32,983 nucleotides of DNA from Clostridia bacterium (GTDB taxonomy: Bacteria > Bacillota > Clostridia > Christensenellales > RUG350): NCBI GenBank assembly GCA_017407285.1, contig JAFQWW010000076.1, positions 1 to 32,983 of the forward strand, in the 5' to 3' direction. Of the stretch, positions 8,772 to 27,713 are shown one piece after another. A program made the translations under genes and the position numbers. A model generated the notes under the pieces. The model saw nothing but the letters and a program-made list of their open reading frames with translations, made no database searches and was not told the DNA's origin. Positions within the stretch are counted from its first letter, which is position 1, and every line of letters begins with the position of its first letter.

Positions 8772-8840
8772 CGACAAATAAACACGGGAGTAGTCTAACT
8801 ACTCCTAATTCTGCAATCTCCCACCGAAATTGAGTTGTGA

Positions 8841-8976
8841 CGTATACGGGCAGGTCTCCTGACTCGGATAGCTTTCGCTCGCGGTCTTCCCGGTTTCCCA
8901 GTGACTTATCGCGTTCTCCTACAGTAGCGGGGGCTGTGCTTACGCTTCCCTATTAAGTGTAATACACCCGTATACC
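8841..8976 (-). ncRNA. Cobalamin (adenosylcobalamin-type) riboswitch
   Basis: The minus strand carries the hallmarks of the cobalamin aptamer: GCACAGCCCCCGCTACTG near the 5' part, GTCACTGGG in the middle and the B12 box GAGTCAGGAGACCTGCC near the 3' end. The closing P1 helix is formed by GGTATACGGG and CCCGTATAC. A terminator and the DUF4430 gene follow. The 5' end lies only about 10 bases after the stop of the metal-dependent hydrolase gene, so its promoter must lie within that gene or it is read from the prs promoter. The aptamer call is very secure; the exact ends are approximate. Confidence 0.95.
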
Positions 8977-8986
8977 TATTAAATTT

Positions 8987-21910: not shown

Positions 21911-22804
21911 ATGGCTAAATTTACAGTACTTTTCGGCGTAGACACTGAAACCGACGTTGGTAGCTTTACCCCGTTCTACGAGAGTATTCCCGTAGGCGTA
22001 CCTATCCTTCTCGATATCTTTGACGAGAAAGGCGTAGGCGCTACCTTCTATTTCACGGGCGAGTGTGCTAAAATGAATCCCGATATCGCAAAACTCGTAA
22101 ACCAGCGTGGTTACGAGGTAGGCGGACACTCTTTGTATCACGAAACCGTTGGCGACGAGTTGTTCCCTATCCCCGGAGTTAAACCTTTACTCCCCCACGA
22201 AGTTGAACCTAGACTCAAGATCGCAACCGAATGGATCGAAGAGGCTGCAGGCGTTCGCCCCACTTCTTTCCGTTGTCCCAGACTTTGGGGTAGCACCGCA
22301 GTTGTAAACGCTCTTGAAAACTTGGGTTACACGTCGGATGCAACCTATCCGATGTATTTCTATCGCGAGAGATTCGCACCTTATTATCCTTCTCGTGAAG
22401 ATTGGACCAAAGAGGGCGACAGCACCGTTTTGGAAATTCCCAACTTTGCAGATATGGTAATGGAAAGTAAGGACGGAGATTTGCAACGTGACCGTGACCA
22501 ATGGCCCGAATTCCGTACCAAAGGCGCAAAATTCGTTGCAGACAAAGTAGCAAACTACTTGGAATTTGCAAAAGGCAAGGGTATTGAGAATCCCGTTATT
22601 GCATTCTACATTCATCCTTGGGAGTTCGTTCCCTGCAAAGAGTCTTATCACTTCGGTGAGTCCACCGTATTACCCGACGAGTTCATCATCAGAAATACGG
22701 GCGAAGTTGCTATAAAAGAACTTCGTGACCTTATCGATTTACTTAAAGACATGGGCGCAGAATTCAAGGCTGCTCGCGACATCGTAAAAGATTATCAGAA
22801 ATAA
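21911..22804 (+). CDS. Polysaccharide deacetylase-fold (NodB/PuuE-like) hydrolase
   Basis: The 297-residue protein has the NodB motifs. Motif 1 is FGVDTETDVG, VGATFYFTGE is the first core strand, GGHSLYHET gives the HxxxH metal ligands, SFRCPRLWGS is the motif-3 Arg-Pro region, and FYIHPWEFVP is the late His motif. The HPWEF ending and lack of a signal peptide are more like cytosolic PuuE-type allantoinases or DUF3473-type deacetylases than exported chitin deacetylases. The substrate is unknown. It lies 15 bases after the ASRT gene with AAGGAG upstream of its ATG, and ends at a strong terminator. Pairing with a creatinase-like protein makes a small nitrogen compound a possible substrate. Confidence 0.86.
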   Translation: MAKFTVLFGVDTETDVGSFTPFYESIPVGVPILLDIFDEKGVGATFYFTGECAKMNPDIAKLVNQRGYEVGGHSLYHETVGDELFPIPGVKPLLPHEVEPRLKIATEWIEEAAGVRPTSFRCPRLWGSTAVVNALENLGYTSDATYPMYFYRERFAPYYPSREDWTKEGDSTVLEIPNFADMVMESKDGDLQRDRDQWPEFRTKGAKFVADKVANYLEFAKGKGIENPVIAFYIHPWEFVPCKESYHFGESTVLPDEFIIRNTGEVAIKELRDLIDLLKDMGAEFKAARDIVKDYQK

Positions 22805-22813
22805 TCACTAAAC

Positions 22814-22847
22814 AAAAAGGACTTTGGAAAACCAAAGTCCTTTTTTT
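22814..22847. terminator. Bidirectional terminator after the deacetylase gene
   Basis: A perfect 14-bp stem AAAAAGGACTTTGG/CCAAAGTCCTTTTT with an AAAA loop, followed by T7 on plus and TTTTT on minus. It serves the plus-strand operon and the minus-strand small gene that ends at 22850. Confidence 0.9.
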
Positions 22848-22849
22848 AT

Positions 22850-23083
22850 TTAAAACTTTCTCTCGTAAATTTCACTTGCGATTTTGTAAAATTCCGATCT
22901 CGCTTGACAAAACTCTTTATAAAACTTTCTCTGCCTTTCATCTAAGGTGTTGTATAACTCCCCTTCCGCTACCTCCATGCGACCTCTAGCAATTCTAAAT
23001 TCTAAATCCATCTCGCTTGACACCTGCCTTGCAGTATCCGCAATAAACTTCGCAATATCTTCATTCGTTGCTTTCTTTCTCAT
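22850..23083 (-). CDS. Small helical protein of unknown function
   Basis: The 77-residue product is highly charged and predicted all-helical (NEDIAKFIADTARQVSSEMD, then RQRKFYKEFCQARSEFYKI). I do not recognise a family. AGGAGG lies 6 bases before the ATG, and the codon pattern looks real. A strong terminator hairpin (23105-23128) sits between this gene and the promoter at 23320-23348, so expression needs read-through of that terminator or an unseen promoter. It converges on the deacetylase operon and shares its terminator. Confidence 0.6.
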   Translation of the reverse strand: MRKKATNEDIAKFIADTARQVSSEMDLEFRIARGRMEVAEGELYNTLDERQRKFYKEFCQARSEFYKIASEIYERKF

Positions 23084-23094
23084 AATTTCCTCCT

Positions 23095-23128
23095 AAAATA
23101 AAAAGTGCGTCAACCGAAGCCGACGCAC
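23095..23128 (-). terminator. Intrinsic terminator with TTCG tetraloop
   Basis: On the minus strand GTGCGTC (23122-23128) pairs with GACGCAC (23105-23111), extended inward by GGC/GTT wobble pairs to a TTCG loop, then TTTTTATTTT. It ends the RNA that begins near 23314. Confidence 0.85.
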
Positions 23129-23314
23129 AAAAACGCAAACTCCGATTGTCGCCAAACAAATAGAATATAGAAGAGGGATAAAATCCTTTACGTTCCAATC
23201 CGTGCGGAATTTGCATTTTTACAAAATTCATCACGAACTAGAATGCGCAAAAAGGATATATCTATCCTATAAAAAATATCTCTCTTCTAAATATATATTC
23301 ATTTTTGTTTGGCG
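23095..23314 (-). ncRNA. Candidate rod-shaped structured RNA (6S-like or attenuator leader)
   Basis: A promoter (23320-23348) predicts transcription starting at about 23314. That is exactly where an 11-base arm CGCCAAACAAA begins, perfectly complementary to TTTGTTTGGCG at its far end (23150-23160 in plus coordinates). Between them further matched segments lie in order: GAATAT/ATATTC, AGAAGAG/CTCTTCT, GGATAGA/TTTATCC, ATCCTTT/AAAGGAT, CGTG/CACG and a GAATTTG/CAAATTC tip. Unpaired stretches separate them, the largest about 14 bases on the 5' side. Together they make a single long interrupted rod of about 165 bases, followed by an intrinsic terminator. This is the general shape of 6S RNA, but I cannot match a family consensus. 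A leader for the 77-residue gene, or a MITE-like insertion, are alternatives. Confidence 0.55.
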
Positions 23315-23319
23315 TAATT

Positions 23320-23348
23320 AGTATAACACATAAAATAGTTTTTATCAA
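23320..23348 (-). promoter_or_regulatory. Promoter for the rod-shaped RNA
   Basis: Minus-strand TTGATA (23343-23348), a 17-base spacer and TATACT (23320-23325). The predicted start coincides with the first base of the terminal stem. Confidence 0.7.
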
Positions 23349-23386: not shown

Positions 23387-23455
23387 CGTTTCTTGCCGAT
23401 AAAGACGTGAAACCGCTATTTTTATTGCATATTTTGCCTGTATCGGCAAGAAACG
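23387..23455. repeat. 15-bp perfect inverted repeat upstream of the Fic gene
   Basis: CGTTTCTTGCCGATA (23387-23401) and TATCGGCAAGAAACG (23441-23455) are perfectly complementary, separated by 39 bases. The inner nine bases TTGCCGATA recur a third time at 23485-23493 in the Fic promoter region. The spacing suggests paired operators or a large hairpin. Confidence 0.7.
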
Positions 23456-23476
23456 CAAGATTTTTTGCTTTTTTTA

Positions 23477-23507
23477 TTGATTTTTTGCCGATAGTGTGAT
23501 ACACTAT
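23477..23507 (+). promoter_or_regulatory. Probable Fic promoter with overlapping operator palindrome
   Basis: TTGATT (23477-23482) stands 17 bases from TACACT (23500-23505), which is preceded by TGA as a partial extended -10. A 17-base palindrome ATAGTGT-GAT-ACACTAT (23491-23507) covers the -10, and a TTGCCGATA box lies in the spacer. Repression, perhaps by the Fic protein's own HTH domain, is an inference. Confidence 0.5.
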
Positions 23508-23524
23508 ACATAGGTGATATGATT

Positions 23525-24394
23525 ATGTTAAACGTAAAAGAAACGGCAAAAAAATGGGGAATATCAGAGAGAAGCGTAAGAGATTATTGCAATAAAGGCA
23601 CAATTGAAGGCGCTATTTTAGAAGGAAAAACCTGGCTTATACCTGAAAGTGCACGAAAACCTATGCGCCAAAATGCAAAAATTTCCAATCTTTTGTCTAT
23701 TCTTCGTCAAGAAAGACAGGCAAAAGTCTCAGGTGGTATTTATCATCAAATACAAATCGACTTGACGTATAATTCAAACCATATAGAAGGTTCTACCCTT
23801 TCTCATGACCAAACGAGATATATATATGAAACGAATACGGTGGGAATAGAAAACGTTGCATTAAAAGTGGACGATATAGTCGAAACGGTAAACCATTTTA
23901 GATGCGTAGATTACGTCATAGACAACGCCACTAAACCGCTAAGCGAGTCTTTCGTGAAAGCATTACACAAAATATTAAAATCAGGGACTAAAGACTCTTA
24001 TCAAGATTGGTTTGCAATAGGCGAATACAAAAAACTACCTAATACGGTAGGGGGAAAGGAAACGACGTCTCCTTCTGAGGTAAAAAACGCGTTAAAAGAA
24101 CTCATTAGCTCCTACAATGCTAAACCACAAAAAACTTTAGACGACCTATTAGATTTCCATTATAAATTTGAGCGCATACATCCATTCCAAGACGGTAACG
24201 GAAGAGTTGGAAGGCTTGTGCTTTTTAAAGAGTGCTTAAAGCACAAAATTGTGCCGTTCATAATAGATGAAAACCTCAAAATCTTCTATTATCGTGGATT
24301 AAACGAGTGGAGCAATGAACGAGGCTTTTTAAGAGAAACTTGCTCGTTTGCACAAGACAAGTTTAAAAACTTACTCAACTATTTCAACTTATAA
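23525..24394 (+). CDS. Fic domain protein with N-terminal HTH and inhibitory helix (class II)
   Basis: The protein is about 289 residues from the ATG at 23525, preferred over 23519 because AGGTG is then at a good distance. Residues 1-45 form a MerR/excisionase-type DNA-binding domain (LNVKETAKKWGISERSVRDY, then TWLIPESARKP). A helix with TYNSNHIEGSTLS follows, carrying the SxxxEG-type inhibitory motif that blocks ATP binding in class II Fic proteins. The catalytic motif HPFQDGNGRVGR is complete, so it should transfer AMP, or a related group, to a target Ser/Thr/Tyr hydroxyl once relieved. IGEYKKLPNTVGG is the target-positioning flap. No Doc-type antitoxin gene is adjacent, as expected with an internal inhibitor. 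Autoregulation through the HTH and upstream palindromes is plausible. Confidence 0.93.
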   Translation: MLNVKETAKKWGISERSVRDYCNKGTIEGAILEGKTWLIPESARKPMRQNAKISNLLSILRQERQAKVSGGIYHQIQIDLTYNSNHIEGSTLSHDQTRYIYETNTVGIENVALKVDDIVETVNHFRCVDYVIDNATKPLSESFVKALHKILKSGTKDSYQDWFAIGEYKKLPNTVGGKETTSPSEVKNALKELISSYNAKPQKTLDDLLDFHYKFERIHPFQDGNGRVGRLVLFKECLKHKIVPFIIDENLKIFYYRGLNEWSNERGFLRETCSFAQDKFKNLLNYFNL

Positions 24395-25761: not shown

Positions 25762-27483
25762 TTATTTTAGATCATCTAAAGCCTTTTTGACGTAGTTTAC
25801 AGCGGTGTCAAGCGCGATATCAAGCGCTACGCTTTCTTTGTAGCTCTTATCTCTAGAGGACATCTCGACTACGCCGTTTTTCATATTTCTAGGTGAAACT
25901 ATTATTCTCAAAGGCGCACCGATAAGGTCTGCATCCGAGAACATTACGCCTGCAGATACGTTTCTATCGTCATATATAACCTCGATACCCTTATCTTGCA
26001 AATCTTTATAGAGTTTATTAGCGTACGCTTTGACCTCTTCGTCGTCCGATCTAACGGCGCACAACTGAACTTGCCAAGGAGCAACGCTCATAGGCCATAT
26101 AGGACCGTAATCGTCGTGATGCGCCTCACAAATAGATGCGGCGAGTCTGCCTACGCCTATACCATAACAACCCATAATAGGATATTGTTCCTTGCCGTCA
26201 CGGTCTACGTAGGTCATATTCATAGAGGTGGTGTACTTGGTGCCAAGTTGGAAAATGTTTCCTACCTCTATACCACGAGATATGGTGATAGCTTTCTTTC
26301 CACAAACAGGACAAATACCTCCCTCTTTGATTTTAGCAAAGTCGTAGTACTGTACACCCTTTATATCACGAGCCATATCAAGACCGGTGTAGTGATAATC
26401 AACCTCGTTTGCACCACAAACCAAGTTGTTCATGTTCTCCAAAGACTTGTCGTACAACAAAATAGCGTCCGCGCTAAAGCCTACGGGGCCGATAAATCCG
26501 GCGTTTATTCCGCTCTCTTCCGTAATAACGGCAGGGTGAATATCAAAGCCTAAGTGATTGGTTAGTTTGGTTTCGTTAACCTCTAAATCCCCACGTAGGA
26601 ACAAAACTATATACTTGTCGTCTGCGTTTCTCTGATAAACCACGGCCTTACAAGATTTTTTAGCGTCTGCATTCAAGAACTCGCAAACCTCTTCTATGGT
26701 GTGTTGATTAGGAGTGGACACTTTTACGAGTTCCTCGCTTACCTCGTCACGAACTTCGTCCAAAATATTGTCCGCTGCTTCCATATTTGCTCTATAATCA
26801 CACTCTTGACACAAAACGATAGAGTCCTCGCCAATAGGAGTTAGAAGCATAAACTCGTGAGACACCTTACCACCCATCATGCCGGAGTCGGATTTTACGG
26901 ATACGACTTCGGGAAGTCCTACTCTTTGATAAATTTTCTCGTACGCTTTGTGACACTCGTCGTAATAGTTTTCCAAATCTTCTTGAGAGGTGTGGAAAGA
27001 ATAAGCGTCTTTCATAGTGAACTCACGCACACGAATAAGACCGGATCTAGGACGAGCCTCGTCACGGAATTTAGTCTGGATTTGATATATCATAAAGGGG
27101 TATTTTGCGTAACTTTGAGCGTACTCACGCACAAGTTGTACCGCTGCCTCTTCATGAGTCATACCAAGGACTAAAGGAGAATCGTTACGATCGGAAAATC
27201 TTACGAGTTCCTTACCAATACTTTCATATCTACCGGACTCCGACCAAAGTGATCCCGGCATAACTACGGGAAAAGCCACTTCCTGTCCGTCTATTTTATC
27301 CATCTCCTCGCGCATAATCTGCTCGATTTTTTTGGTTACCCTCTTCAAGGGCATAAAGGACGAATAAATGCCGTTTGCAACGTACTTCATATATCCGCCA
27401 CGAACCATCAATGCGTGACTGTCTACAACGCAATCAGACGGTCTTTCCTTAAATCTCTCGCCAACGAGTTTGTCAATCTTCAT
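25762..27483 (-). CDS. proS: Prolyl-tRNA synthetase, bacterial type with editing domain
   Basis: This class II aminoacyl-tRNA synthetase of 573 residues charges tRNA-Pro. The start at 27483 (MKIDKLVGERFKE) has GGAGG 5 bases upstream; a longer reading from 27612 runs through the T-box leader and is rejected. Motif 1 lies around GIYSSFMPLKRVTKKIEQIM. Motif 2 is FRDEARPRSGLIRVREFTMKDAYSF. Motif 3 is in MGCYGIGVGRLAASI. Between motifs 2 and 3 is the INS editing domain (about residues 220-400) that removes mischarged alanine, including NVDCLCQEC-like cysteines in LCQECDYRAN. The C-terminal anticodon-binding domain (VAPWQVQLCAV) is complete. Regulated by the T-box at 27497-27713. Confidence 0.97.
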   Translation of the reverse strand: MKIDKLVGERFKERPSDCVVDSHALMVRGGYMKYVANGIYSSFMPLKRVTKKIEQIMREEMDKIDGQEVAFPVVMPGSLWSESGRYESIGKELVRFSDRNDSPLVLGMTHEEAAVQLVREYAQSYAKYPFMIYQIQTKFRDEARPRSGLIRVREFTMKDAYSFHTSQEDLENYYDECHKAYEKIYQRVGLPEVVSVKSDSGMMGGKVSHEFMLLTPIGEDSIVLCQECDYRANMEAADNILDEVRDEVSEELVKVSTPNQHTIEEVCEFLNADAKKSCKAVVYQRNADDKYIVLFLRGDLEVNETKLTNHLGFDIHPAVITEESGINAGFIGPVGFSADAILLYDKSLENMNNLVCGANEVDYHYTGLDMARDIKGVQYYDFAKIKEGGICPVCGKKAITISRGIEVGNIFQLGTKYTTSMNMTYVDRDGKEQYPIMGCYGIGVGRLAASICEAHHDDYGPIWPMSVAPWQVQLCAVRSDDEEVKAYANKLYKDLQDKGIEVIYDDRNVSAGVMFSDADLIGAPLRIIVSPRNMKNGVVEMSSRDKSYKESVALDIALDTAVNYVKKALDDLK

Positions 27484-27496
27484 ATTTACCTCCAAA

Positions 27497-27713
27497 TAAA
27501 AAAAGCCCTGACCTAAGTCAGGACGAAATAGTTTCCGTGGTACCACCTGTGTTCGGATTGCTCCGCACTCTCTGCGCTTTAACGGGCGCACCCGACGTGC
27601 TCTCGCACGCAAGCTCCAAGACGGGAATGAGTAAAGACTTTGAAAACTCGCACCTACCGTTTTCTCTCTGAAAAAGCTGATTTACTCTCTTTCTTATCAA
27701 CGCTTATCAAATT
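27497..27713 (-). ncRNA. T-box riboswitch for proS
   Basis: The minus-strand leader contains the T-box AGGTGGTACCACGG (about 27533-27547), whose TGGT can pair with the ACCA end of uncharged tRNA-Pro (A73). A terminator hairpin GTCCTGAC/GTCAGGGC with T7 follows (27497-27524), then the proS ribosome site. Upstream is a long stem I, with GAGTAAA pairing to TTTACTC. The triplet CCC at 27623-27625, on the 3' side of stem I, is a suitable proline specifier. Uncharged tRNA-Pro would prevent termination and turn on proS and the ceramidase-like gene. Confidence 0.93.

Follow-up and report, generated by a model that had tools for sequence, protein, structure and literature searches.

T-box leaders (RF00230) precede genes in Firmicutes and carry a long 5′ rod, followed by a tail that decides whether antiterminator or terminator forms. 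In riboswitches of the preQ1 and c-di-GMP types, which use a pseudoknot or long-range helix, mutually exclusive helices gate an intrinsic terminator and copies may stand in tandem; c-di-GMP riboswitches serve surface genes too. 6S RNA (RF00013) is rod-shaped with a length near 200 nt, and Clostridiales-1 (RF01699), like other catalogued orphan RNAs, is a conserved structured RNA of gut Clostridia. Each of these resembles in some respect the element at 23095-23348 in the stretch of 32,983 nucleotides analysed here (the window). The original prediction had described it as a rod-shaped RNA like 6S RNA or, as second choice, as a riboswitch-like leader of the adjoining 77-residue gene. Comparison with its homologues now argues, with high probability, for a transcription attenuator acting in cis: a portable leader that would set the level of downstream transcription.

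Promoter, rod and terminator at the locus

The features of the element lie on the minus strand. The predicted promoter, TTGATA-17-TATACT, is present at 23348..23320, with the -35 hexamer TTGATA at 23343..23348 and an extended -10, TGT-TATACT, at 23320..23328. Five nucleotides past the -10 is the first base of the 5′ arm of helix P1 (23304..23314), which is the predicted transcription start within ±1 nt; the proposed coincidence of start and helix base thus holds. This 11-base arm (23314-23304) pairs perfectly with the P1 3′ arm at 23150..23160 (23160-23150), its first base lying 164 nt from the last base of the partner. Several of the further helices expected in one interrupted rod were confirmed, together with a side hairpin that branches from the 5′ strand of the rod (23253..23268), a feature of the long subtype described below. 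The rod is capped by the apical hairpin P2, GAAUUUUGUAAAAAUGCAAAUUC (23207..23229). It is followed by the TTCG terminator, GTGCGTCGGCTTCGGTTGACGCAC-TTTTT, at 23100..23128, in which the stem (23128-23105) with its UUCG loop precedes the U tract.

The original prediction had missed that the tail between rod and terminator (23149-23129) has two complementary partners, the loop and 3′ arm of the terminator on the one hand and, along 15 bp, the apex of the rod on the other. The latter pairing, P3, is formed by AAAAAUGCAAAUUCC from the 3′ side of the apex (23206..23220) with the switch strand GGAGUUUGCGUUUUU directly after P1 (23129..23143). The former, the antiterminator, joins CAAUCGGAG (23140..23148) to CUUCGGUUG (23111..23119), which comprises the terminator loop and part of the terminator 3′ arm; its 5′ strand overlaps the switch strand. 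A triple helix at the apex was considered and discarded, as both U-rich strands are antiparallel to the A strand and hence compete.

A Shine-Dalgarno sequence AGGAGG (23089..23094) precedes the gene that the element would control (22850..23083), which encodes a 77-aa protein from an ATG at 23083, about 17-20 nt past the terminator on this strand. The unit is closed by a nearly symmetrical terminator hairpin at 22814..22845, called on the plus strand for the convergent gene 21911-22804 and probably used on the minus strand too. The minus-strand element folds at -80.9 kcal/mol, against -48.0 ± 4.4 for shuffled sequences (z -7.5). The plus strand scores similarly, since the element is an inverted repeat, and the strand was therefore assigned from the promoter, the terminator, the G-U pairs and the gene.

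The window also holds a cobalamin riboswitch (RF00174) at 8832-8986 on the minus strand and, on the same strand, a T-box leader (RF00230) at 27516-27709, directly upstream of a prolyl-tRNA synthetase-like gene (25762-27612). At 23387-23500 the sequence TTGCCGATA occurs three times, and two of these copies make up a longer inverted repeat (TTTCTTGCCGATA / TATCGGCAAGAAA). The repeats look like an operator; shortly downstream lies a Fic-like gene whose product has a DNA-binding domain at its N terminus (23519-24394).

A family of leaders in Clostridia

A BLAST comparison with 60 relatives turned up similar elements in some ten genomes. All have the promoter, rod, conserved tail and terminator, most often also a ribosome site and start codon, and the genes that follow differ. 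A covariance model (R1) was built from 14 copies, with P1, the apical hairpin and the terminator as its sole helices. It had matches in 84 of the 396 genomes searched within the order and in 88 of 391 within class Clostridia. In a sample of the phylum, searched under strict filters by which weak matches may be lost, the window's own genome alone was matched (1/398), and the covariance model found no homologues in the genomes sampled outside class Clostridia. About 150 distinct copies were collected, which fall into a long form of ~190-240 nt and a short form of ~150-185 nt. In fuller scans, five genomes from other parts of the class each had 12-14 copies and the window's genome had a single one; a second copy was sought there and none found. 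The named records with the element are mostly metagenome-assembled genomes from ruminant and rabbit gut, plus Pumilibacter intestinalis CLA-AA-M10; the hosts are gut Clostridia, uncultured apart from at least one species.

Every homologue has its own sigma-A-type promoter. The extended -10 TGn is found in 121 of 148, and in 142 of 148 the -10 and the helix are separated by 4-6 nt. Of the 125 homologues with a -35 matching at least 4 of 6 bases, 110 have a spacer of 17.

Helix conservation was counted in an alignment (A3) of 100 distinct copies. P3 and the antiterminator were absent from model R1, and the alignment was thus not fitted to them. P1 was paired in 99.5% of cells with two-sided changes in 9 of 10 pairs, and the apical hairpin P2 in 90.6% with two-sided changes in all six. 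The two parts of P3 were paired in 91% and 98%. Together P1 and P3 held 124 two-sided cells against 22 in shuffles, a control that here and below takes no account of relatedness; a control with slid register favours the true register in every case. Most changes in P3 are one-sided (for example A-U to G-U) and it has fewer two-sided changes than P1, but the helix is kept despite quite different sequences in divergent copies (L138, L083_444, L277, L310). In the antiterminator the tail CnAUCGGAG pairs with CUUCGGUnG of the terminator loop and 3′ arm. It was paired in 96.8% of cells, with 38 two-sided cells against 8.8 in shuffles and matched changes between copies such as CAA/UUG, CUA/UAG, CAG/CUG and CGA/UCG; one of its pairs is G-U in 96 of 100 copies. 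The terminator was paired in 97.3%, with 56 two-sided cells against 13.7. The covariance search proposed at the outset has thus recovered a large family with compensatory changes, and these support a real structured RNA very well. A short reading frame starting from GUG in the terminator stem was set aside, the frame not being preserved between copies by eye.

The homologues stand before genes. In 92 of 132, an open reading frame led by a Shine-Dalgarno sequence begins no more than 110 nt downstream; the upstream control gave 4 and the shifted one 11. The start codon follows the element at a median of 19 nt. Among leader genes of at least 150 codons, a crude hydropathy rule found an N-terminal signal or membrane segment in 50 of 74 (30 of 225 control frames), and a lipobox was present in 23 of 74 (2 of 225). 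Pfam assigned BspA-type leucine-rich repeats to 18 of 103 downstream proteins; zinc ribbons, DUF4236, an EcoRI-type methylase, S-layer, collagen and other matches were less common. The genes are diverse and without a shared pathway, with lipoproteins, BspA-type proteins and other envelope proteins enriched. Just a few downstream proteins match defence models, and the reading as a defence island was dropped. The 77-aa product of the window has no Pfam match; its relatives in two other genomes (G266, L073; G367, L083) are likewise behind a leader of the family. Tiny cysteine-rich proteins (ITGIxLTPGNxGKDCxGN...CCCNECDYL) recur behind the leader in several genomes (L308, L311, L314, L299).

The proposed attenuator and its alternatives

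An intrinsic terminator lies between promoter and start codon, an antiterminator exclusive with it is kept by compensatory change, and a third helix exclusive with the antiterminator is kept in the same way. Both P3 and the antiterminator draw on GGAG and neighbouring bases of the tail, and the latter also takes up the terminator loop and 3′ arm, so that the full forms are mutually exclusive. As the tail is unable to pair fully with both partners, the element is very probably a transcription attenuator. The module would consist of its own sigma-A-type promoter, a switch RNA of ~215 nt, the terminator and a ribosome site. RNA polymerase would start at the first base of P1, the rod would fold and the tail would then have two competing partners. 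In the off state, pairing of the tail with the apex (P3, 15 bp) would block the antiterminator, allowing the terminator to fold and a rod RNA of ~215 nt to be released. In the on state, the apex would be closed as P2, leaving the tail to pair with the terminator loop and 3′ arm and RNA polymerase to read through into the gene. The off state (open apex, P3 and terminator) was calculated to lie ~9 kcal/mol below the on state (P2 and antiterminator), a figure that excludes the pseudoknot penalty and geometry; from such simple energies the two states are estimated to be near balance.

Comparative evidence supports the family itself, its helices (P1, P2, P3, antiterminator and terminator) and its placement before genes. 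From these we infer that the RNA is transcribed, that the alternative folds exclude each other in cells, that off is the default, and that a shared trigger stabilises or opens the apex. The second choice of the original prediction, a riboswitch-like leader of the 77-residue gene, is therefore upheld as regards the leader and applies to the whole family. A trans-acting protein or RNA at the apex is slightly favoured as trigger over a small-molecule ligand, because pairing accounts for nearly all conserved positions.

A metabolite-binding riboswitch would be a sub-case of the attenuator, with the same off and on pairings and a different trigger alone, here a small molecule that binds to the apex of the rod, to the P3 pseudoknot or to the AAUA bulge above P1. 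The architecture is that of a riboswitch expression platform with a pseudoknot, tandem copies occur as in known riboswitches, and a DAATA motif near nt 14-16 is present in 38 of 50 short forms (15 in shuffles) and in 43 of 99 long forms (20 in shuffles). However, conserved sequence lies almost wholly within the pairing strands, with little strictly conserved unpaired sequence elsewhere, which makes a classical aptamer less obvious; the rod interior is free to vary and the downstream genes have no pathway in common. We regard a small-molecule trigger as possible but doubtful.

Tandem and orphan copies bear on whether the terminated rod is itself the product. Tandem leaders, each with promoter and terminator, were seen at five loci (L083, L111, L150, L280, L315), an arrangement that counts against the attenuator, being odd for a simple cis switch, and that also fits small-RNA genes. 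Several copies without a clear downstream gene count against it as well. Four such copies (L277, L286, L288, L290) are suggested to be decayed or free-standing RNAs. One genome (G367; L083 and L150) has at least five tandem leaders over two contig ends, the last preceding a 77-aa gene related to that of the window. A trans-acting small RNA, with the downstream gene read by leakage only, would agree with these tandem copies without genes between them and with the orphans, as well as with the strong promoter of the element and a 5′ end sealed in a helix. It is nevertheless an unlikely explanation: most copies have a Shine-Dalgarno-led gene at tight distance, a covarying antiterminator would be purposeless in a pure small RNA, and rod interiors differ between copies.

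Exchange between copies was examined by comparing boundaries in four pairs. Two 242-nt elements from different genera (L099/L105) differ at a single base, in the terminator; the DNA upstream of them is less alike and the genes are not the same. In two different families most of the element is in common and the gene is not (L145/L147). Two adjacent paralogous small genes, ~90% alike, have clearly different leaders, one short and one long (L314/L316); leader and gene therefore evolve or move separately. The near-identical copies before different genes (L099/L105, L145/L147), and the dispersal of copies generally, could also point to a DNA-level element (a MITE or recombination site), in which the rod would represent a cruciform or a pair of terminal inverted repeats. 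Such an origin is very improbable, as the conserved unit runs past both arms to include promoter, tail, terminator and ribosome site, wobble pairs are kept on one strand only, and the window's genome has a single copy. A phage or plasmid origin was also rejected: the mobile-DNA search gave one short partial match, to an unannotated faecal phage contig (MT835503.1, 468-539), a pattern search found the element in three viral contigs (whole elements include L050 and L051), and the plasmids searched gave no match. The copies on phage and viral contigs may be either prophage or mis-binned host DNA.

A 6S RNA or 6S-like polymerase decoy, suggested by rod shape and length alone, is hardly credible for a leader that adjoins Shine-Dalgarno-led genes, reaches 14 copies per genome and has no match to RF00013 even at permissive thresholds, the more so as five of nine host genomes tested (G367, G411, G454, G584, G590) have a separate 6S gene above the Rfam cut-off.

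Comparison with known RNA classes

Scans of the element against Rfam at curated and permissive thresholds gave chance matches alone and no family that fits, and the T-box model RF00230 matched at no copy scanned. A partial literature search found no paper describing the family; with Rfam as the catalogue compared, it is apparently undescribed, though priority is uncertain. The switch family appears in gut Clostridia before a wide range of genes, most of which encode cell-surface and secreted proteins, and may thus control the encounters of these bacteria with their host and neighbours; the trigger, once identified, would show which input the envelope repertoire has in common. Tentatively, since the case falls somewhat short of an even one, these leaders may form a portable switch of a new class, restricted to Clostridia, by which many unrelated envelope, adhesin-like and secreted proteins would answer one common signal. 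The switch could be swapped independently of the coding region and stacked in tandem, and would work by strand exchange between apex, tail and terminator in place of a conventional aptamer core.

Against the described systems, the element differs from Clostridiales-1 and the other catalogued orphan RNAs in matching no Rfam family, and from 6S RNA in being a multicopy cis leader with a terminator and a gene. Compared with preQ1- and c-di-GMP-type riboswitches, its long-range helix spans the whole rod, no ligand pocket is recognised and no Rfam riboswitch matches. Unlike T-box leaders, which it does not match in Rfam, it stands before genes for envelope and accessory proteins rather than tRNA or amino-acid genes, and its tail pairs with the apex of its own rod instead of a tRNA end.
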